NCBI GenBank assembly: GCA_029262315.1
Contig: JAJCZP010000180.1
Span: forward strand, 1-35,311
Source: Deltaproteobacteria bacterium
GTDB lineage: Bacteria; Desulfobacterota; Binatia; UTPRO1
Direction: 5' to 3'
DNA: 35,311 nt
Every line of letters begins with the position of its first letter. Position 1 is the first letter of the stretch. This document shows, piece by piece, positions 23,681-33,307 of this stretch. Made by a program: the position numbers and the translations under genes. A model generated the notes under the pieces. That model had not been told where the DNA came from, made no database searches, and saw only the letters and a program-made list of their open reading frames with translations.

Positions 23681-26037
23681 GCCTCGTAGCGCTCCAGCTT
23701 CACCTGCACGTAGCGGTGGTGTGGGCAGCCCGTGATAGGGTCGCGATCTGTGGTGTCGGTGATCTCGTTCATGTTGGCGCCCTCACGCTGGACGTCCCCG
23801 TTGGTGCCCGTCGGATAGGCCCCGCCGAAGCCGTTCGGCATCGAGACGTGGCCGTCCATCATCTTGCGATCGACGTGTGCGGGTAGGGTGAATTCACCGC
23901 GGCGCGTGGAGATCCGGATCTGGTCGCCGGTCTCGACACCGATCTTCTCGGCGTCGGCCTCCGAGAGATTGAGCGTGCAATGCGGACCGCGGCCTTTGCG
24001 CCACGTGGGATCCTGCTGAATCGTGTTCGCGGTCCAACGGGTGCGGAGGCCTGATCCGAGCACGAAGGGATATTCTGGATCGTGCGCCGCGGGCGTTGCG
24101 ATCGCGCGGCGCATTTCGTCGAGCATCTTCTCTGGTGCAAGACGGACGCGCTTGTCGTCCCAGTTCACGTGTTGCTCGTAGTTCTTGTCGGGATCCATGC
24201 AGGCGATCTCGACGCCTTCCGGATGCGCGAGTACACGTCGGAAGAGCTCGGCGCCGATCTCGAACGGGTTCTTGTCCTTCCAGTCGGGGCCGAGCGTGCG
24301 GAGCACGTCCTCGCCGCGTTGCAGCGCGTTCAGGTTGCACTGGAACCAGATGCCGACGAGCGACGGCGCGGGCAGATGTTTCCCGAGAGTCCGGTACGCC
24401 CAGAAGAGCATGTGGTTCTCGCCGCCACCGGCCTCCTGCGCGAGTTGCTGCGCGGTGCCGAGGAACATCATTGCGCCGTTGGGATCGAGGGCGTTGGCCG
24501 CCAGTTCCTCGAGCTGTGCCGGGGGCGCTCCGAAGAGGTCCATCGCCTCAGCCAGGCGGACGTAGATCTCCGGCTCGGGCAACGCTTCGGATGGGCCGGG
24601 GACAACGGGTGGGCGGAGCTGCGTGTGGATTTCGGGATAGCGCTTCGGAAAGAGCGCGATCTCCCACTTCTCGTACCCAACCGGAGTTGGGAGAACGTAG
24701 TCCGCCAGACGCGCCGTATCAGTCATCGCCGGATCGATGACCACCATCAAGTCGAGCTGTTTCCGGGCCTCGCGCCACGCGTTGGCGTCGGAGAACGATA
24801 GGATCGGGTTCGAGCCCTCCACGATCATGGCGCGCATGCGCTCGGGATGGTCGATCATGATCTCTTCCGGCACGAGAGTGGGCGAGAACATTCCGAGGTT
24901 GCCGAGGGCCCGGATGGCCTCGATTCCGGAGGCGAGGGCGACCTCGGGAGCGCTGACCTTGCCCTCGTCGAGCTGCGCCGGTGCAAAGGTCTCCATGAAG
25001 ACGTTGCCGCCCTTGGTGCCGATGTTGCCTGTGATCGAGAGGATCATGTGGATGGCGTACGAGACCAGCGTGGAGAAGGGCGTCTGCTCGACACCGAGGT
25101 CGTAGAAGATCGAAGCGGTCTCTGACTTGGCGAGTTCGGTTGCCGTCTCGACCAGCGCCGCCGTTTCCAGGCCACAACGTTTGGCCATCTCGTCGACGTC
25201 GACCTGTGACAGCACCTCGCGTAGCTCTTCGTACTGGAGGGTGGTGTTCTGCACGAACTCGTAGTCGACGAGCTCCCGGCTGACGATCGTCGCCGCAATG
25301 CCGAGCAGCAAGTACGCATCGGTGCCGGGGCGGACGCGCAGGTGCCGATCGGCGGTTTGCGTGGTCTCGGTCTCGCGGGGGTCCGCGACGACGATGGTGC
25401 AATCGTTTTTCTTCGCAAGATCTTTGAAGAGGTCGGTCGCGTTGTGGCCGCGGTTGCTGATCTTCGGGTTGGTGCCCATCACCAGCATGTAGTTGGTGTG
25501 CTCAGCGTCCGCATGCATGAAAGTGGCCGGTGACGAGTTGAACATCCATTGGCCCATGAGCGCATGCTGGGTCTTCTCTTGCGCGAATGCGTTGAACCAG
25601 CGCTTGGAGCCGACCGTCCGCAGGAAGCCCAACCCGTAGGCGGCGTCCATGTGGTTGCCCTGGCCGCCGATACCGACGAGTCCGATGGCCCGTGGCGAGT
25701 GCTTGGTGCGGATATCGGAGAGCTTCGCACCGATTTCGCTGATGGCCTGGTCCCAGCCGATGCGCTCGAACGAGCCGTCTGCGGCGCGTTTCAGCGGATA
25801 CTGCACGCGATTCGCGTGCTCGACGTACTTGCCGATGCTGAAGCCCTTGTTGCAGATGTAGCCCTCGGTGATGGGGTTGTTCTCATCGGCGCGGACGGCG
25901 GTGATCTTGCCGTCGGCGACGTCGACGACGAGGCCGCAGTTGTGGCTACAGAGCACACAGATCGTTGGCTTGTTCGTGCCGTCGAGGTCGATCGGCGTAC
26001 GGGAGACCGAAGGGTCTACGGATTGCGTTCGGCTCAT
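23677..26037 (-). CDS. Molybdopterin oxidoreductase, DMSO-reductase superfamily
   Basis: 786 residues, ATG read from 26037, overlapping the HxlR stop by four bases. The N-terminal [4Fe-4S] motif is complete: Cys27, Cys30, Cys34 and Cys62 (C-x2-C-x3-C-x27-C). Then come the cofactor-binding pieces: MLVMGTNPKISNRG, VVADPRETETTQTADRHLRVRPGTDAYLL, GNIGTKGGNVF, VEGSNPILSF, DTARLADYVLPTP, and the C-terminal GDQIRISTRRGEFTLPAHV domain with the cofactor-contact end MPNGFGGAYP. No Tat signal is present, so it is probably cytoplasmic. In the segment that normally carries the Mo/W ligand (residues about 148-160, FNAFAQEKTQHAL) there is no Cys, Sec or Ser. The substrate is unknown; a formate-dehydrogenase-like or unusual non-redox member are both possible. 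Confidence 0.9.
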   Translation of the reverse strand: MSRTQSVDPSVSRTPIDLDGTNKPTICVLCSHNCGLVVDVADGKITAVRADENNPITEGYICNKGFSIGKYVEHANRVQYPLKRAADGSFERIGWDQAISEIGAKLSDIRTKHSPRAIGLVGIGGQGNHMDAAYGLGFLRTVGSKRWFNAFAQEKTQHALMGQWMFNSSPATFMHADAEHTNYMLVMGTNPKISNRGHNATDLFKDLAKKNDCTIVVADPRETETTQTADRHLRVRPGTDAYLLLGIAATIVSRELVDYEFVQNTTLQYEELREVLSQVDVDEMAKRCGLETAALVETATELAKSETASIFYDLGVEQTPFSTLVSYAIHMILSITGNIGTKGGNVFMETFAPAQLDEGKVSAPEVALASGIEAIRALGNLGMFSPTLVPEEIMIDHPERMRAMIVEGSNPILSFSDANAWREARKQLDLMVVIDPAMTDTARLADYVLPTPVGYEKWEIALFPKRYPEIHTQLRPPVVPGPSEALPEPEIYVRLAEAMDLFGAPPAQLEELAANALDPNGAMMFLGTAQQLAQEAGGGENHMLFWAYRTLGKHLPAPSLVGIWFQCNLNALQRGEDVLRTLGPDWKDKNPFEIGAELFRRVLAHPEGVEIACMDPDKNYEQHVNWDDKRVRLAPEKMLDEMRRAIATPAAHDPEYPFVLGSGLRTRWTANTIQQDPTWRKGRGPHCTLNLSEADAEKIGVETGDQIRISTRRGEFTLPAHVDRKMMDGHVSMPNGFGGAYPTGTNGDVQREGANMNEITDTTDRDPITGCPHHRYVQVKLERYEA

Positions 26038-26558
26038 CGTGTCTTCTCCTTGTCGTCTCGAGGGGCAGCACGGCGCATGCGTGCGCCGTCATCGTTGGTA
26101 AGTAGCGCACGGAGTGCGGGGCCGGGACGTGCCTCGACATTGCGAGCGTTGACGGGGCCGCCGCATTCCGGGCAGCCGAGTTCGGGGAGCATCGTATGCC
26201 CGCACTCGCGGTGCACGAGCTCGACTGGGGCGCCGTCTTCACCGGCCATCCAGCGGTCACCCCAGCGGGTGAGTCCGATGACGATCGGATAGAGGTCCAG
26301 GCCCTTTTCTGTCAGGCGGTACTCGAAGCGCGGGGGGCGGTCCTGGTAGCGGACCTTTTCGAAGACGCCCTCGTCGACCAGAGTATTCAGTCGGGCGGTG
26401 AGTACGTGCCGGGTGAGGCCGAGATGTGCGTGGAAATCGTCGAAGCGGCGGGTGCGGAGGAAAGCCTCTCGAAGGATGAGGAGCGTCCAGCGATCTCCGA
26501 TGACCGAGAGGGTTCGGGCGACCGAGCAGGTTGTCTCGCCGATTTCTCGCCAACGCAC
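26034..26558 (-). CDS. HxlR-family winged-helix transcriptional regulator
   Basis: 174 residues from the GTG read from 26558; the HxlR core begins at once (CSVARTLSVIGDRWTLLILREAFLRTRRFDDFHAHLGLTRHVLTARL), so a longer start is not needed. The wing YQDRPPRFEYRLTEKGLDLYPI is typical. The C-terminal tail has a small Cys cluster (HRECGHTML...GCPECGGPV) that could bind zinc or sense redox state and extends past the usual ~110-130 residue family length. The stop overlaps the molybdoenzyme start (ATGA). A perfect palindrome at the start of the gene is a likely autoregulatory site. HxlR proteins commonly respond to reactive electrophiles or quinones, which would fit a redox cassette. Confidence 0.93.
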   Translation of the reverse strand: MRWREIGETTCSVARTLSVIGDRWTLLILREAFLRTRRFDDFHAHLGLTRHVLTARLNTLVDEGVFEKVRYQDRPPRFEYRLTEKGLDLYPIVIGLTRWGDRWMAGEDGAPVELVHRECGHTMLPELGCPECGGPVNARNVEARPGPALRALLTNDDGARMRRAAPRDDKEKTR

Positions 26559-26560
26559 GA

Positions 26561-26583
26561 GTGAGTTCCTAATTGGAACTCAC
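26561..26583 (-). promoter_or_regulatory. Palindromic operator candidate of the HxlR-molybdoenzyme cassette
   Basis: A perfect 9-bp inverted repeat (arms GTGAGTTCC and GGAACTCAC) around a 5-base TAATT spacer lies two bases from the GTG start of the HxlR gene. The AGGA that could serve as Shine-Dalgarno is inside it. Size and position suit a dimeric winged-helix repressor acting on its own operon. Binding by this HxlR is inference. Confidence 0.7.
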
Positions 26584-26616: not shown

Positions 26617-26654
26617 AAAACGGGGACCTGCCCGTTCGGACCGGTCCCCGTTTT
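26617..26654 (-). terminator. Intrinsic terminator of the gene ending at 26679
   Basis: Perfect 12-bp arms 26617-26628 and 26643-26654 (AAAACGGGGACC against its complement), 24 bases after the minus-strand stop. Read on the minus strand the stem ends in TTTT, so it is a good intrinsic terminator and isolates the HxlR cassette from read-through. Confidence 0.88.
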
Positions 26655-26678: not shown

Positions 26679-27540
26679 CTAGGGGCAAGTGCATGCGTCC
26701 GGGAATCCCGGCGGGATGCACTTGCCCGGGCACGCAGGAGCATCGAGGCCATCACACTCCTCGACCGGCGTGTCGGCGATGTCGTTGCCACAGAAGGCCT
26801 GAATCGCCGAGGGGACGCATAGCTCCTTCGGGTGCGTGATCTCGACTTCGCGCGCATCGAACTGATTGTCGATGAAGATGCCGGCGATGTTCAGCCGCTT
26901 CGGCACGGTCTTGATCTGGTAGCACATCAGCGAGGTCAACGGCGCGAACAGCGGCGTGGGCGGTTCGGGCGCGATCTCCTTCGTCGCCGGGATACACAAC
27001 CGCTTTGGCTTCTTGATCTTCGCGACGAGCGTGTTCGGGTCGACACCGAGCGGGCCGAAGAACTGATCCTCGATGGTCGTGCCCTCCGACCGGTATCGGG
27101 TCTTGGCGACCTTGTAACACTTGAAGTGGTTGAAGTCCTCGGCGAGTGGGCCGGGAGGAGCGCCCAGGGCCTTGGCGCTCGGGAGCATGAGCAGGTCGGG
27201 CTTGATGAGGTCCATCAGTAGGCCGCCCGGATGGAACTGGTTGAAGACCAGGACTTCCCGTCGGCGCTCGAACTTCGGAAAGCCCGACTGGCGCTTGACC
27301 ATGTAGCCGACCAGATGCTCGTTCGCGAGGGCGGCGGTCGGATCCTCGCCGTTCTTGTTCGCCGGGCTGCACAGGCGTGAGAATTTCTTCACGCGACCCA
27401 CCCAGTTGCCGTACTTGACGTCGGTCATCATGACGTTCTCGATCTGGTCTGTCGGGAAGCGCCGGCCCTGGTGACAGATGAAGTGGCGGAGCGGCGACCG
27501 GGTCGGTACCGGCGTCGGCGTCGCCGTGAGCGTCGGCGTC
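26679..27540 (-). repeat. Long direct repeat, copy 1 (C-terminal module coding region)
   Basis: This stretch aligns with 29144-30005 at a constant offset of 2465 bases at both ends (stop codon and the stalk junction), so no net insertion or deletion has occurred. The encoded ~275 residues differ at only about 20 positions by eye. Confidence 0.85.
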
Positions 27541-28862
27541 GCGGTGACCGTCGGCGTGGGCGTGGCAGTCACCGTCGGGGTGGCTGTTGGCGTTGGCGTG
27601 GCCGTCGGCGTCGCCGTTGGTGTCGGGGTGGCTGTCGGAGTCGGGGTGGCTGTCGGAGTCGGGGTTGCGGTCGGCGTTGGGGTGGCCGTCGGTGTCGGGG
27701 TGACGGTCGGCGTCGGGGTGACCGTTGGCGTCGGGGTGACGGTGGGCGTCGGCGTCACGGTCGGGGTGACGGTGGGTGTCGGCGTCACGGTCGGGGTGAC
27801 GGTGGGCGTCGGCGTCACGGTCGGGGTGACGGTAGGCGTCGGCGTCACGGTCGGGGTGACGGTAGGCGTCGGCGTCACGGTCGGGGTGACGGTAGGCGTC
27901 GGCGTCACGGTCGGGGTGGGTGTTGGTACTGGAGCGGTCGAGGTCGGAGTCGGAATTGGTGTTGAGTCAAAGACGGGATCGCCACCCGATTTGAACGGCG
28001 AGTTGTGGATCGAGTTGGCCCCGACCAAGATTGTATTCGCCCCGCAGGCGCTCACGTCGAAGCTCATCTCGTAGACCATCGTCCATGCCCAGTCGAACGT
28101 TGCGTCGTAGAATGGGTAGTTCAGGTCGTGGGGTGTGTCGTTCGGGTCAACGAAGGGCGACTTCCACTCGGACGCGAATGTGACCGGGTTCTGATCGAGC
28201 TCGAATGTCGTGTTGTTGAAGTTCCAGGCGAGCGACGTTGCCGCCGTGTAGCTGGGTGGGGCTGTGCCGTCGTCGTTCTGGCAGTCCCCGTGCACATATG
28301 TTCCGTTGAAGGTCGCCGTCGAGGCAAGCGCGTCAGAGGGCTGGAACTCGACGGTGTCCTGCAACTCGCCTACGCCAAGAAGCGGTCCTTCGAACTCCTG
28401 CCCATTGGACGGCGTATAGCCCGCGTAGCCAGGTATCGTCTTCAGTGCATTCGGGATGCACATGTAGGACTGTCCCCACGTGTACGAGATGGCCCCGCAG
28501 GAAACAGTGACGTCGATCAGCTTCTCGCTGTTGTAGAGGACTCTAGCATTGCGGTCCTGCGTCCAACCGACGCTCGTCATGTAGCTTGAGAGGAGGCCGT
28601 CGTCGAAGACGTTGTCGTTCACCAACGGATTGGCGAGAAACGCTAGATGCAGTGTCGTCCCGTCGAGGGAAGAGTACAGCGAGCCACGGTCAGGAACCGA
28701 CGCGACCAGCGCATAGTTCGCATCGTCACCGTCGCCGTAGAAAAGACCGTTCACGGTGACTGCCGCTGCGTGTGTTGGTACCAGCGCAATCAGAGCGGCT
28801 GCGGCGATGATGGCACGGATACTGCGAGTGCGGTAACGGGCGGCAGTCTGGTGCAGGGTCAC
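26679..28862 (-). CDS. Secreted PT-stalk protein with four-repeat C-terminal module (paralogue A)
   Basis: 727 residues from a GTG read from 28862 with GAAGGGA upstream; signal peptide about residues 15-34 ([20 protein letters not shown]). Residues about 35-300 form a unique beta-rich domain ([18 protein letters not shown] ... [15 protein letters not shown]). A Pro/Thr/Val stalk of about 145 residues follows, coded by 30-bp and 18-bp DNA repeats. The last ~275 residues hold four repeats that begin around HFICHQ, HLVGYM, HFKCYK and LMCYQI and end around RLCSPA, LMLPSA, RLCIPA and ELCVPS. A Cys-rich tail ([20 protein letters not shown]) closes the protein. This C-terminal module is almost identical to that of the protein at 29144-32821. 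Probably a surface-exposed, stalk-displayed protein; function unknown. Confidence 0.8.
27619..27918 (-). repeat. In-frame minisatellite coding the PT stalk of paralogue A
   Basis: Seven imperfect 18-bp units (27619-27744, coding [12 protein letters not shown]) adjoin five full and one partial 30-bp units beginning at 27751, 27781, 27811, 27841, 27871 and 27901. The 30-bp units are nearly identical, differing mainly by single bases, which points to recent expansion. All unit lengths are multiples of three. Confidence 0.9.
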
Positions 28863-29040: not shown

Positions 29041-29073
29041 GGATTCCTCCAGTGCGGCCGTGAGTCGAAATCC

Positions 29074-29123
29074 TCAACGAAAGGCGGGATTTGCCCGTGA
29101 AGGCAGATCCCGCCTTTCGTTGA
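29074..29123 (-). terminator. Intrinsic terminator of the gene ending at 29144
   Basis: Perfect 17-bp arms 29074-29090 and 29107-29123 with a 16-base loop that contains a further 4-bp pairing (TGCC/GGCA). It starts 20 bases after the minus-strand stop. Its stem base (CAACGAAA...) resembles the terminator at 26617-26654 after the paralogue, suggesting the terminator was duplicated with the gene end. Confidence 0.85.
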
Positions 29124-29143
29124 ATTGCAGCTTCGAGACTCGG

Positions 29144-30005
29144 CTAGTTACAGGTGCACGCGTTCGGGAGCCCTGGCGGGACGCAGTTCCCCGGACACCC
29201 TGGGGCGTCGAGCCCGTCGCATTCCTCGATCGGCGAGTCGGCCATGTCGTCGCCGCAGAAGGCGTCGATCGCGGAGGGTACGCATAGCTCCTTCGGATGT
29301 GTGATCTCGACCTCGCGGGCATCGAACTGGTTGTCGATGAAGATACCGGCGATGTTCAGCCGCTTCGGTATGGTCTTGATCTGGTAGCACATCAGCGAGG
29401 TGAGCGGTCCGAACAGCGGGGTCGGTGGCTCAGGTGCGATCTCCTTCGTCGCCGGGATGCACAAGCGCTTCGGCTTTTTGATCTTTGCGACCAGCGTGTT
29501 CGGGTCGACGCCGAACGGGCCGAAGAACTGATCCTCGATGGTCGTGCCCTCCGACCGGAATCGGGTCTTGGCGACCTTGTAACACTTGAAGTGGTTGAAG
29601 TCCTCGGCGAGCGGGCCGGGAGGTGCGCCCAGGGCCTTGGCGCTCGGGAGCATCAGCAGGTCTGGCTTGATGATGTCCATCAGCAGGCCACCTGGATGGA
29701 ACTGGTTGAAGACCAGGACCTCGCGCCGCCGCTCGAACTTGGGGAAGCCCGACTGGCGCTTCACCATGTAGCCGACCAGATGTTCGTTCGCGAGGGCGGC
29801 GGTCGGATCCTCGCCGTTCTTGTTCGCCGGGCTGCACAGGCGTGAGAATTTCTTCACGCGCCCCACCCAGTTCCCGTACTCGATGTCGTTGATCATGACG
29901 TTTTCGATCTCGACGGTCGGGAAGCGTCGGCCCTGATGGCAGATGAAGTGGCGAAGCGGCGACCGTGTTGGCACCGGCGTTGGTGTCGCTGTGAGCGTGG
30001 GTGTG
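29144..30005 (-). repeat. Long direct repeat, copy 2 (C-terminal module coding region)
   Basis: Partner of the copy at 26679-27540, same orientation. Differences cluster at the beginning of the module and in the final Cys-rich tail, while the middle is nearly invariant, as expected after gene conversion or recent duplication. Confidence 0.85.
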
Positions 30006-32821
30006 GGCGTGACCGTCGGCGTAGCCGTGGCGGTTACCGTCGGCGTTGGGGTGGCCGTCGGCGTTGGGGTGGCCGTCGGCGTTGGGGTGGCCGTTGGTGT
30101 TGGCGTGACCGTCGGTGTTGGCGTGACCGTCGGTGTGGCGGTGACGGTCGGCGTTGGGGTGACCGTTGGTGTGGCGGTGACGGTCGGCGTCGGGGTGACC
30201 GTCGGTGTGACCGTGACGGTCGGCGTCGGGGTGACCGTCGGCGTGACCGTCGGGGTCGGCGTGACCGTGGGTGTGACGGTTGGCGTTGGCGTGACCGTGG
30301 GTGTGACCGTCGGGGTCGGCGTGACCGTGGGTGTGACGGTTGGCGTCGGCGTGACCGTAGGTGTGACCGTCGCAGTCGGGGTCACGGTCGGTGTGACCGT
30401 CGGGGTTGGTGTGACCGTGGGTGTGACCGTCGCAGTCGGGGTCACGGTCGGTGTGACCGTCGGGGTTGGCGTGACCGTGGGTGTGACGGTCGCGGTCGGG
30501 GTCACGGTCGGGGTGACCGTCGGGGTAACGGTGGGCGTGACGGTCGCGGTAGCCACCAGGACTACGAAGCCGAAATCGAACGTATGGTCGTTCTGTCCGA
30601 GATCACCCGTCATCGCGCTGATTTCTGGGAAGCCCATTACCGTGGTTGCGTCGCTGTCGTGGATGTCCGAGCCCTGGTCCGCGATCGTCAAGATGAGATC
30701 CTCGAGCGGTCCGGCGACGCCGTAGTCGGCTGGATTGTCGAGTCGGATCTCGTAGGTCGTGTTCGTCATCAGGCCGCCGGTGACATTGCTGTCGTTGAAG
30801 TAGTACTCGCCATTGGCGTCGGTGACTGTGGTGCCGACGAGGACGCCGCCGTCATAGAGATTGACGGTGACGCCGACGAGCGGAGTCTCTCCGGCATCCT
30901 GGATGCCGTCGTTGTTCGTGTCGAGCCACACACGGTTGCCGATCTCGAGGGGAGCCACTTCGCAGAGCGCCTCGAGGTCGCCGAGGCCGTTGGCCTTCCC
31001 GAAGGTATCTCCCAGCCCACCGCCGTTCGTGCTGAATACGGAGTAGGAGTTCGAGTTGGTGCCATCGTCGTTGACGAACCAGAAGATACCGCCGTCGAAT
31101 GCCTCACCCGAGTCGAAGATGGGGTCGAACCCGGTCGAGACGACGTCGATGTTGCCGGGGACCTGGACGAGGCCACCGAGCGAGATCTCGTCGTGGACGG
31201 GGTGATTATCCTGGAAGTAGTACTCGCCGCCGCTCGGGCCTTCGGCGTTGTTGTCGCCTGTCGTGGTAATGCTGCCGCAGGTGCCGTTGCTCTCGAGAGT
31301 CCAGCCGCTCGATGGGTTTCCACAGGCGCGCAGCGTATCGCCCGCCACATCTCCGCGGTACAACGTGGCGTTGGTGATGTCGGTGTCGCCCTTTTCGAAG
31401 CCTGTCTGATCGCCGAAGCGGTCGCGGATACCCAGGATCATGTCGCCGCGATCGAAGACGATGTCGGTCAACCATGGCTGCGGATACGTGATCTCGTTGC
31501 CATTGAAGATCGGCGCGCCGTTGAAGGTGAAAGTGGTCGACCACGGGTTCCATTCGGCGGCTCGTGTCGCGGTGCCGCCGAACGGCGCGTTTGTTACCGC
31601 GTCGCCCCGGCCGTAGTCGAGGGGGAAGTTCAGCTCGAGGGTAAACGTGCCCGGCGCGGCGGGGTCCATCGAGTAGACCAGGGCCCGAAGATCGTTCGTG
31701 TCCTGCGTAGTTTCGGCCGTGCAGACCATTCCGACGTAGACGAGGCCGTCGTAGAAGGCGGTTGCGAAGGGGCGAACGTTGTCATTCGTACTGCCGCCAT
31801 TGCCGTCGTTGACGCAGACACCACCCGCGGTCGGCTCTGGGAGCTTGATGACCGTGACATCCCCGATCGTGATCGGCCCGGCTGTGACCGGGAAGCTGTA
31901 GAGTTCTTTGGTGAGGAGGTTCACCGTGTAGAGGGTCGACAGATCATCCGAGATGTCCATGTCGCCGAAGGCGATCTTGCCCACGGGATCCCACGAGTCC
32001 GGATCGTGAAACCAGCAATCGTCGCCAGCCACGAGGGGCGGCTCACAGCTCGTGGGCGACGACGGATGGGGGTCGGCGCCGGCGAGGCCGCTGAAATCGG
32101 CGTACTCGGTGACAGTTGGCGCGGTGCTCGCACTGGTGACCCGGTAGAGAACTCCAGTGTCGCCAAAAGTGCGAAAGCCCGAGTGGCGCTTCATGAAGGC
32201 GCCCGCGAAAAGGCTGTCGGAGATCGGCTCGTAGGCGAGGCCCCACGTCGTGCCCATTTCGTCGGCCCCGGCGAGATGGGCAGGCGTTGGCGCGGTGTAG
32301 CTGCCTGAGTCGCAGCTGCCGTTCCGGTTCAAGTCGGGGCAGCCCGCGGTGAACGGGAAACTGATGAGGACGTCGCTCATCGACAGCGATTGCTCTTCTT
32401 CGACGTAGCAACTGGTCGCGAGTGTCGGCTCGAGCTCGCAGTGCTGCCCGGGATTCGCGAGTCCGAGGTCGATGTCAGCCGCAGGGCTGATGACGAATGT
32501 GACTGTCGTCCCTGAGTCGGCGCCCTCGGGCCCTGGTTCCAGGTGACTCGGAATGCCGCTGAACTCGACGCGGTAGTCCGCACCGTTCAGGAGTCCGGCG
32601 ATCGTATAGCTGCCGTCGCTCGCCGTCGTCGTCGAGCCCGCAACTGCGCCCGCGGAATCGTACGCGGTGATGGTGATGCTCTCGACACCCGGTTCCGTGT
32701 TACCGACGCTGTTGGCGCCGTCGGCGTTGTAGTCACGAAAGACCGTGCCGCTGACCGTTTGCGCTGCGGCAGGTGCGGCGAGAGCCAGGGTGATGATCAG
32801 AGCGACGGCGAACCTTCTCAT
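29144..32821 (-). CDS. Very large secreted SdrD-B-like PT-stalk protein with four-repeat C-terminal module (paralogue B)
   Basis: 1225 residues from the ATG read from 32821, preceded by GAGGAG; this start gives a standard signal peptide (FAVALIITLALAAPAAA). Residues about 22-105 are an SdrD-B/Cna-B-like domain (VSGTVFRDYNADG ... GSYTIAGL). A region of ~500 residues (GTTWGLAYEPISDSLFAGAFMKRHSGF onward) reads like a large beta-propeller or adhesin body. A second SdrD-B domain follows (EIGNRVWLDTNNDGIQDAGE ... GEYYFND). Then comes a ~190-residue Pro/Thr/Val stalk and the same ~275-residue four-repeat module and Cys-rich tail as the protein at 26679-28862. SdrD-B domains are Ca-binding structural units of surface adhesins. 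Expected to be an extracellular stalked protein; its ligand is unknown. Divergent from the hydrolase gene at 33308. Confidence 0.83.
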   Translation of the reverse strand: MRRFAVALIITLALAAPAAAQTVSGTVFRDYNADGANSVGNTEPGVESITITAYDSAGAVAGSTTTASDGSYTIAGLLNGADYRVEFSGIPSHLEPGPEGADSGTTVTFVISPAADIDLGLANPGQHCELEPTLATSCYVEEEQSLSMSDVLISFPFTAGCPDLNRNGSCDSGSYTAPTPAHLAGADEMGTTWGLAYEPISDSLFAGAFMKRHSGFRTFGDTGVLYRVTSASTAPTVTEYADFSGLAGADPHPSSPTSCEPPLVAGDDCWFHDPDSWDPVGKIAFGDMDISDDLSTLYTVNLLTKELYSFPVTAGPITIGDVTVIKLPEPTAGGVCVNDGNGGSTNDNVRPFATAFYDGLVYVGMVCTAETTQDTNDLRALVYSMDPAAPGTFTLELNFPLDYGRGDAVTNAPFGGTATRAAEWNPWSTTFTFNGAPIFNGNEITYPQPWLTDIVFDRGDMILGIRDRFGDQTGFEKGDTDITNATLYRGDVAGDTLRACGNPSSGWTLESNGTCGSITTTGDNNAEGPSGGEYYFQDNHPVHDEISLGGLVQVPGNIDVVSTGFDPIFDSGEAFDGGIFWFVNDDGTNSNSYSVFSTNGGGLGDTFGKANGLGDLEALCEVAPLEIGNRVWLDTNNDGIQDAGETPLVGVTVNLYDGGVLVGTTVTDANGEYYFNDSNVTGGLMTNTTYEIRLDNPADYGVAGPLEDLILTIADQGSDIHDSDATTVMGFPEISAMTGDLGQNDHTFDFGFVVLVATATVTPTVTPTVTPTVTPTATVTPTVTPTPTVTPTVTPTATVTPTVTPTPTVTPTVTPTATVTPTVTPTPTVTPTVTPTPTVTPTVTPTPTVTPTVTPTPTVTPTVTPTPTVTVTPTVTPTPTVTATPTVTPTPTVTATPTVTPTPTVTPTPTATPTPTATPTPTATPTPTVTATATPTVTPTPTLTATPTPVPTRSPLRHFICHQGRRFPTVEIENVMINDIEYGNWVGRVKKFSRLCSPANKNGEDPTAALANEHLVGYMVKRQSGFPKFERRREVLVFNQFHPGGLLMDIIKPDLLMLPSAKALGAPPGPLAEDFNHFKCYKVAKTRFRSEGTTIEDQFFGPFGVDPNTLVAKIKKPKRLCIPATKEIAPEPPTPLFGPLTSLMCYQIKTIPKRLNIAGIFIDNQFDAREVEITHPKELCVPSAIDAFCGDDMADSPIEECDGLDAPGCPGNCVPPGLPNACTCN
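30241..30540 (-). repeat. 60-bp higher-order tandem repeat in the PT stalk of paralogue B
   Basis: Five consecutive 60-bp units (starting 30241, 30301, 30361, 30421, 30481) are visible, each made of degenerate 12- to 30-bp pieces coding PTVTPT-type residues. Units at 30361 and 30421 differ at only one or two bases. Less regular PT-coding repeats extend to about 30005. Confidence 0.85.
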
Positions 32822-33307
32822 GCTGGAAACTCCTCGTGCGAACGCCATCGTACCGATCGCATGGCGTGGCGGGGTGCGCCCGGGGCGAATGGTGTCTCGC
32901 AACGGCGGCGTTGGGGGGAAACGTCGGGCAATGCATCTCCTTCAGGTTCGGGCAGTGCTGCTACTTCAAGAAACGGCACAGTTGTTCTGTCGGCATGGAG
33001 ATTCCGTCGGAAGTAGCATGGCAATCCCTATAACTCCAGCAAAATCGTAAGGTCGCACGGTGACACACCGCGCCAGACTAGTGCACCCTACGGGTGGACG
33101 CGCAGGCGCGATCCCGCCGACGCTCAGCGCTTTCTTGTTCCCGTGCTCTCACAACTAGGCCACATGGCGAACGCTATGCGCTTCAGGTCTGCATCGGGGC
33201 TTCTTCGGACCGTGCGAACCTGAAGATTGCCCCATTCGAAGGGCGCGTGGTACAGCCGTACTACTTCCAGTTGCCACGAACTCAACGTTCTCGAGGAGGA
33301 TCGTCCA
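32822..33307. other. 486-base divergent intergenic region
   Basis: Upstream of both the paralogue B gene (-) and the hydrolase gene (+); no convincing gene inside. Both promoters should lie here, but no consensus pair stands out. Near the + gene an 8-bp inverted repeat (33181-33188 with 33218-33225, arm CTTCAGGT) encloses a 29-base GC-rich loop, a possible leader structure. The short frames present lack ribosome sites and family character. Confidence 0.4.

Follow-up and report, generated by a model that had tools for sequence, protein, structure and literature searches.

Is a perfect palindrome next to the gene of an HxlR-type regulator the switch of that regulator and of the molybdopterin enzyme gene behind it, and if so, what kind of switch is it? 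The question is raised by a stretch of 35,311 nucleotides from a Deltaproteobacteria bacterium, called the window here. We describe the palindrome and its genes, its conservation, its position relative to promoters, the regulator and the enzyme.

The palindrome and the genes behind it

A palindrome with 9-bp arms and a TAATT spacer, as claimed in the preliminary description, is present exactly (Table 1). Its 9-nt arms are 100% complementary across the spacer of 5 nt, and the core of the putative operator, AGTTC-N7-GAACT, lies at 26564-26580. Only 2 nt separate the end of the palindrome from the start codon of the HxlR gene, a GTG at 26558 and the sole in-frame start found for this gene. The palindrome had also been placed over the translation-start region of the regulator; it covers the likely Shine-Dalgarno sequence but abuts the coding sequence and does not overlap it.

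Table 1. Coordinates of the features discussed, in window positions.
Feature	Position	Strand	Remarks
Palindromic operator (putative)	26561..26583	.	GTGAGTTCC-TAATT-GGAACTCAC; conserved before orthologues
Likely Shine-Dalgarno AGGAA of the HxlR gene	26566..26570	-	Within the putative operator; by eye
Hairpin, 18-nt arms	26617..26654	.	Between the upstream gene (26679-28862) and the putative operator
HxlR/DUF24 regulator, 174 aa	26034..26558	-	PF01638
Cys11 codon	26526..26528	-	Invariant, likely sensing thiol
H116-x2-C119-x9-C129-x2-C132 cluster	26163..26213	-	Probably structural zinc site, judged from the residues
MopB-type molybdopterin oxidoreductase, 786 aa	23677..26037	-	PF04879 + PF00384 + PF01568
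Q153-E154-K155	25573..25581	-	Aligned position holds the metal-binding Sec/Cys in formate dehydrogenase
AhpC/TSA-redoxin, 202 aa	23072..23680	-	PF00578; weakly TlpA/ResA-like; NCBIfam under cut-off

With up to three mismatches allowed, GTGAGTTCC-N5-GGAACTCAC occurs at a single place in the source genome (5.9 Mb, 298 contigs), and the window copy is also the only exact AGTTCY-N5-RGAACT site there. A larger regulon in this genome was considered and set aside: at up to one mismatch 15 sites were found, compared to 11 for the reversed control pattern, and only the window's is exact. The search for perfect inverted repeats, with arms of 9 nt or longer and spacers of 3 to 8, gave 10 matches at six distinct places in the window, where 30 first-order Markov resamplings of the window gave a mean of 1.9 matches. 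Because such repeats are found at six window places, the palindrome alone is unremarkable, and its conservation is the real test.

The hairpin upstream of the palindrome looks terminator-like by eye, yet is absent from the terminator scan. A long hairpin-like stretch that resembles it by eye lies past the second repeat-protein gene (29066-29125). Both repeat proteins, encoded on the minus strand at 26679-28862 and 29144-32902, are large and contain long Thr-Pro repeats. They closely resemble each other in their C-terminal parts, apparently as the result of a duplication. DUF7450 (Pfam: PF24247) is annotated in the protein encoded at 26679-28862.

The HxlR, MopB and redoxin genes overlap by 4 nt each, as described before, and all lie on the minus strand; judged from these overlaps, joint control of the three by one switch is no more than plausible in this genome. 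By eye, the redoxin shows a WCPVC motif, and its N-terminus resembles a signal sequence. In a tblastn search (E up to 1e-4) over 206 loci a redoxin homologue was matched in the window's own stretch alone. Since the redoxin stands beside MopB in the window only, it looks like a local addition, and the general HxlR-molybdoenzyme-thioredoxin cassette proposed earlier reduces to a recurring unit of HxlR and MopB. Among the 26 close MopB loci (L007-L032, 56-100% identity) the MopB gene has an adjacent HxlR gene in 11 loci, a MarR gene in seven and neither within its 1.5-kb flanks in eight, one of which begins inside the gene.

A close HxlR gene is present in 29 of 148 genomes of the class. Relatives by HxlR protein are found in MAGs labelled Candidatus Binataceae, Deltaproteobacteria and Proteobacteria, and further in Streptomyces, Cellvibrionaceae, Tepidiforma, Bradyrhizobium and others.

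Conservation of the palindrome upstream of HxlR genes

For this comparison we used 63 distinct HxlR genes, having dropped genes with less than 90 bits, genes with less than 60 nt upstream and copies with identical first 61 bases. The set takes in neighbours of a second MopB clade (33-38% identity). The 200 nt upstream of each gene were scored with the window's own twelve bases, AGTTCC-N5-GGAACT. A score of at least 10 out of 12 was reached by 17 of the 22 distinct HxlR genes which are first in, or divergent from, the MopB unit (window included) and by none of the seven HxlR genes that follow MopB. The same score was found for nine out of 463 control genes, six of which share an intergenic region with HxlR by coordinates, and for 18 out of 4400 resampled upstream regions. 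The check proposed in the preliminary description, namely that the palindrome is kept upstream of orthologous HxlR-MopB genes, is borne out by this difference between genes and controls. All five genes that fall short (L089, L095, L097, L100 and L101) have Asn51 in the recognition helix; four of these loci carry GGTTKC-N5-GCAACC, and L095 has no site.

A stricter rule demanded a score of at least 8, five of six arm bases paired and a position within 60 nt. Six of the 463 controls pass it, all of them HxlR neighbours: those in L038 and L060 share an intergenic region with HxlR, and those in L041, L043, L044 and L047 are dehydrogenase genes right after HxlR. With the distance widened to 80 nt, 19 of the 22 HxlR genes pass, while L064 and L065 fail because their arms pair in fewer than five bases.

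Exact AGTTCY-N5-RGAACT sites number 70 in the 148 genomes of the class (hand count) compared to 68 for the reversed control, so the number as such is background. Ten of these 70 start within about 70 nt of one of the 36 close HxlR starts, where about 0.001 would be expected (hand estimate).

These results bear on the reading that the palindrome is a chance inverted repeat or the site of another regulator and lies beside HxlR by accident. It draws on the palindromes of similar size at five other places in the window, but the site is conserved across several families of the class and absent before unrelated genes, and we regard this reading as extremely improbable. Pure chance was rejected on account of the conservation, though palindromes as such are not rare.

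Nine close HxlR genes with 56-64% identity, four from Pseudoteredinibacter/Cellvibrionaceae and five from Streptomyces, have no site upstream of HxlR, and no MopB was found in their loci. In the four Pseudoteredinibacter/Cellvibrionaceae loci a site scoring 9 of 12 lies before the next gene, a dehydrogenase; the Streptomyces loci have none. Between HxlR and the following dehydrogenase gene, all four of L041, L043, L044 and L047 carry GGTTGCAAAATGGAACC, a near-palindrome of the same build. An alphaproteobacterial HxlR relative has a perfect palindrome with 14-nt arms upstream, CCCAACTTACTTGC..GCAAGTAAGTTGGG (L061:3953-3985). Among the matches listed from the HxlR literature, a partial coverage of titles and abstract beginnings, there is no such operator and no HxlR-molybdopterin gene pair.

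The site follows the front of the unit

A site that marks the front of the unit, whichever gene stands there, should shift with gene order, and this prediction was checked. In three genomes with the order MopB-HxlR (G023, G043 and G102) nothing scoring 8 or more is found before HxlR, and a variant palindrome lies 35-39 nt before MopB. These palindromes are GGTTTC-GTTTT-GAAACT, AGTCTC-ATTTC-GAAACT and GGTTTC-GTTTC-GAAACC, respectively. They score 9, 9 and 8 of 12 with 5, 5 and 6 of 6 arm bases paired, and are distinguished by symmetry and position only, as 37 of the 463 controls also reach 9 or more somewhere in 200 nt. Among four more distant loci with MopB first, L088, L093 and L094 have no site; L098 has an ambiguous candidate 45 nt before the first aligned MopB residue, which may be inside the gene.

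Position relative to promoters

No sigma-70 promoter was found in the window by scan, so the repressor geometry for the window is taken from its relatives. In nine of them (L064, L065, L127, L146 and L192-L196) the site lies between TTGACT and a TANNNT hexamer that are 18 nt apart, although in three of the nine an equal-scoring 16-nt alternative was preferred by the script. The site begins 32-68 nt before the start codon in these relatives, and its place in the -35/-10 spacer is the classic repressor position. In L063, TTGACT-17-TATAGT comes just before the site. No such promoter arrangement stands out in the other nine H-type sites compared.

The same geometry bears on whether the palindrome might act in the RNA, as a hairpin covering the Shine-Dalgarno sequence of HxlR, by translation control or attenuation. 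The 9-bp stem does enclose AGGAA, and the 61-nt stretch folds with -23.2 kcal/mol (z -3.5, with none of 200 shuffles as good). However, a site inside a likely promoter spacer, as in the nine relatives, would not be transcribed from that promoter, which makes hairpin control unlikely, and the three genomes with MopB first carry the variant before the other gene. We therefore give an RNA hairpin very little weight and prefer an operator in DNA.

Between HxlR and MopB in L127 and L193-L196, TTGACT stands before the operator and GTCAAG after it (mirrored AGTCAAG, by eye, several divergent loci). The mirrored copy after the site suggests one operator for two divergent promoters.

The HxlR regulator

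The regulator is a member of the HxlR family with 81.3 bits to PF01638 (cut-off 20.8), and its structure is predicted with a pLDDT of 87.3. The best fold match is PA1607 (2f2e); Foldseek also found HypR, HxlR, YodB and QsrR.

The predicted recognition helix varies in step with the site. Residue 51 is His in 19 regulators with TTCY..RGAA sites and Asn in 16 with GTTKC..GCAAC sites, without crossing. In these counts 28 of the 63 HxlR genes are without an assigned site, and the His51/TTCY class is favoured because sites were picked by likeness to the window's pattern. On the tree, for which two operator labels were set by hand, the pairing amounts to one supported independent contrast, or three on the best tree, which is too few for a test.

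An N-terminal cysteine, Cys11, is conserved in 63 of 63 homologues. The preliminary description had pointed instead to an extra C-terminal Cys cluster as a metal or redox sensor. C119, C129 and C132 are indeed present, together with H116. Of the 63 homologues 50 have all four, whether MopB accompanies them or not; among the other 13, 11 have none of the four, one is without the His only, and one (L137) is divergent past residue 125, perhaps by a frameshift. A pattern such as HxxC-CxxC typically marks structural zinc knuckles, and the His-Cys3 set is probably a structural zinc site. Sensing by the cluster instead of Cys11 would be compatible with the operator and is favoured by the conservation of four potential ligands. 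Yet the set is present regardless of MopB, and L089, L097, L100 and L101 are without all four residues and still stand beside MopB with a palindrome. We hold sensing by the cluster to be unlikely and Cys11, which corresponds to the sensing Cys of the family, to be the likelier sensor.

In Bacillus subtilis HxlR, an activator of hxlAB, Cys11 and Lys13 react with formaldehyde, and the Cys11 position is described as a sensor of electrophiles or oxidants elsewhere in the family (PMC7835342, in part). YodB prefers TACT[7]AGTA, comes off the DNA once its Cys6 binds quinone and uses a second Cys, Cys101 (PMC8063818, in part). No counterpart of Cys101 was identified in the window's HxlR. Residue 13, a Val in the window, is Val in 36, Ile in 12, Leu in three and Ala in one of the 52 aligned homologues and never Lys, so a formaldehyde bridge of the published kind is not possible, and formaldehyde sensing of the B. 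subtilis type was rejected.

As B. subtilis HxlR is an activator, repression cannot be read from the family name. Alternatively, the regulator could sit on the palindrome and activate the operon by bringing in RNA polymerase, in the manner of B. subtilis HxlR at hxlAB once formaldehyde has cross-linked its Cys11 and Lys13. In favour of this are the formaldehyde-triggered namesake of the family (PMC7835342, in part), the description of Binatota, the group to which the window probably belongs, as methylotrophs (PMC8262859, in part) and the invariant Cys11. It is opposed by the missing Lys13 and by the position of the site, which is that of a repressor: nine relatives have it in the -35/-10 spacer, others next to the start codon. 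Activation is thus an improbable reading, if less so than the RNA hairpin.

We prefer repression, and put at roughly 80% the probability that the palindrome is the conserved operator of the adjacent HxlR, acting as an autorepressor over hxlR-mopB that is inducible by modification of Cys11. An HxlR dimer would bind AGTTC-N7-GAACT with one recognition helix per half-site and cover the start of the hxlR-mopB transcript, which would keep the operon and its own gene off. A reactive compound would then modify Cys11 and reshape the dimer, so that the DNA is released and the operon is made. Binding by HxlR, repression and not activation, and sensing by Cys11 are what we infer from sequence comparisons; the kind of inducer (electrophile, quinone or aldehyde) is a guess.

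Apparent exchange between HxlR and MarR regulators

A MarR regulator lies directly before the orthologous MopB in seven genomes (G008, G029, G034, G035, G040, G047 and G054), none of which is among the 29 of 148 with a close HxlR. In L067, the one of the seven that was scanned, PF01047 was found with 37.4 bits (cut-off 24.6); the other six genes match the L067 gene by tblastn with 45-61% identity. All seven loci have a palindrome of the CTTGTA-N2-TACAAG or GTTGTA-N2-TACAAC type near the MarR start, with 10-12 of 12 positions. Since this palindrome lies past the first aligned residue in L067 and L075, the true MarR start there is further down. Regulator and operator seem to have been swapped jointly, with MopB retained.

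The MopB enzyme

MopB belongs to the MopB / DMSO reductase superfamily with all three of its Fe4S4, molybdopterin and dinucleotide-binding domains, and its structure is predicted with a pLDDT of 90.5. In the [4Fe-4S] motif Cys 30, 34 and 62 are conserved in 40 of 40 homologues and Cys27 in 39. No twin-arginine leader was found on MopB by eye. The nearest folds are formate dehydrogenases, NapA and acetylene hydratase, with Z scores of 35.7 for ForCE1 and 33.2 for acetylene hydratase. Homologues were matched in five of 395 genomes of the phylum, an evenly drawn sample with two candidates scored per genome listed (E up to 1e-200), and all five are in the class.

Formate dehydrogenase was rejected as the function, with no Sec/Cys aligned and the family model under its cut-off. 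The Sec (X) of 9t1s falls on K155, in a column which comes from sequence alignment and could be shifted by about one residue, and none of the 40 homologues has a Cys at residues 153-155. Q153 and E154 are found in 40 of 40 homologues and K155 in 39. The formate dehydrogenase model TIGR01591 gives 242.9 bits compared to its cut-off of 666.25, and none of the 25 NCBIfam models listed for MopB reaches its cut-off. The active site of acetylene hydratase contains Asp13 and the metal-binding Cys141. Ser31 and Glu154 of MopB stand at these places (alignment columns by eye), and acetylene hydratase was rejected as well. According to a survey of Binatota, most of the genomes have formate dehydrogenase (PMC8262859, in part).

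A more speculative proposal, which we advance tentatively and hold to be rather doubtful as a whole, is that MopB would be a new kind of Mo or W enzyme, its metal without a Cys, Sec, Ser or Asp ligand and with the invariant Gln-Glu-(Lys) instead, possibly detoxifying electrophiles. Sister lineages would have changed the regulator along with its operator (HxlR and AGTTC-N7-GAACT, or MarR and CTTGTA-N2-TACAAG) and kept the enzyme, and short-chain dehydrogenase, DsbA-like and GST genes would belong to one stress regulon.

Neighbouring genes and sites away from HxlR

Several kinds of genes recur beside the regulator. A gene for a nitrate-reductase-associated protein (Pfam: PF09655, scanned in L037) comes directly after HxlR in L037 (4508-4957), L039, L046 and L052, and short-chain dehydrogenase and DsbA-like genes adjoin HxlR or MopB in other loci. 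In L146 a gene like F420H2-dependent quinone reductases (Pfam: PF04075, scanned in this locus; 1231-1761) is found just before HxlR with a TTCY-type site, and a related gene is present in L137 (828-1304).

Sixty of the exact sites in the class genomes lie away from a close HxlR, and the surroundings of eight, chosen for their A+T-rich spacers (L183-L190), were examined. Two lie between GST and dehydrogenase genes, one lies over the start of a formate-dehydrogenase-like gene, and five are without evident link. The two GST sites are an exact AGTTCCATTTTGGAACT in G096 and G097, flanked by a GST gene on one side and a short-chain dehydrogenase/DsbA-like pair on the other, with the core AGTTCC-N5-GGAACT at L183:2252-2268 and L184:3071-3087, respectively, and no HxlR gene in the stretch; they are possible further targets in trans. 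In G146 an exact AGTTCY-N5-RGAACT (L188:3232-3248) covers the ribosome site and start codon of the formate-dehydrogenase-like gene, which may be chance. Taken together, the neighbouring genes (PF09655 protein, dehydrogenase, DsbA-like, GST) suggest, without proving it, an electrophile or xenobiotic response.

Implications

The HxlR switch itself is ordinary in kind, and its operator is very probably read correctly here. What it offers is an operator, predicted down to its sequence, for a subfamily of HxlR. Site, DNA-reading residue (His/Asn 51) and target come as one joint prediction, which makes a ready system for tests. The orthologous enzyme gene stands under two regulator-operator pairs, which would be a case of regulatory replacement. 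For the enzyme, domains alone are no ground for labelling this clade's MopB genes formate dehydrogenases, which matters for metabolic reconstructions of uncultured bacteria.

Comparison with known systems

The closest solved structures by both sequence and fold are PA1607 (2f2e) and PA1374 (4gcv) of Pseudomonas aeruginosa, titled putative transcription factors. Their alignment reaches the C-terminal extension of the window's protein, and their aligned part is without the Cys cluster. The name PA1607 in PMC11623301 (in part) is that of a fungal strain.

The HxlR/DUF24 thiol regulators, which are MarR-like and include YodB, HypR and HxlR of B. subtilis and QsrR of Staphylococcus aureus, share the PF01638 winged helix and the N-terminal Cys with the window's regulator. 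YodB has the same 7-bp gap between its half-sites, TACT[7]AGTA compared to the predicted AGTTC[7]GAACT of the window. In contrast to these regulators, the window's protein adds the C-terminal His-Cys3 extension and has a MopB enzyme as its predicted target, and compared to B. subtilis HxlR it is without Lys13.

MarR repressors with operators of the CTTGTA-N2-TACAAG type likewise stand before the orthologous MopB with a palindrome of their own, but belong to another family (Pfam: PF01047) and use another operator. The formate dehydrogenases FdhF, MeFDH1 and ForCE1 and acetylene hydratase have the same fold and [4Fe-4S] Cys motif as MopB, whereas the metal-binding Sec/Cys of the formate dehydrogenases aligns in MopB with an invariant Gln-Glu and a nearly invariant Lys.
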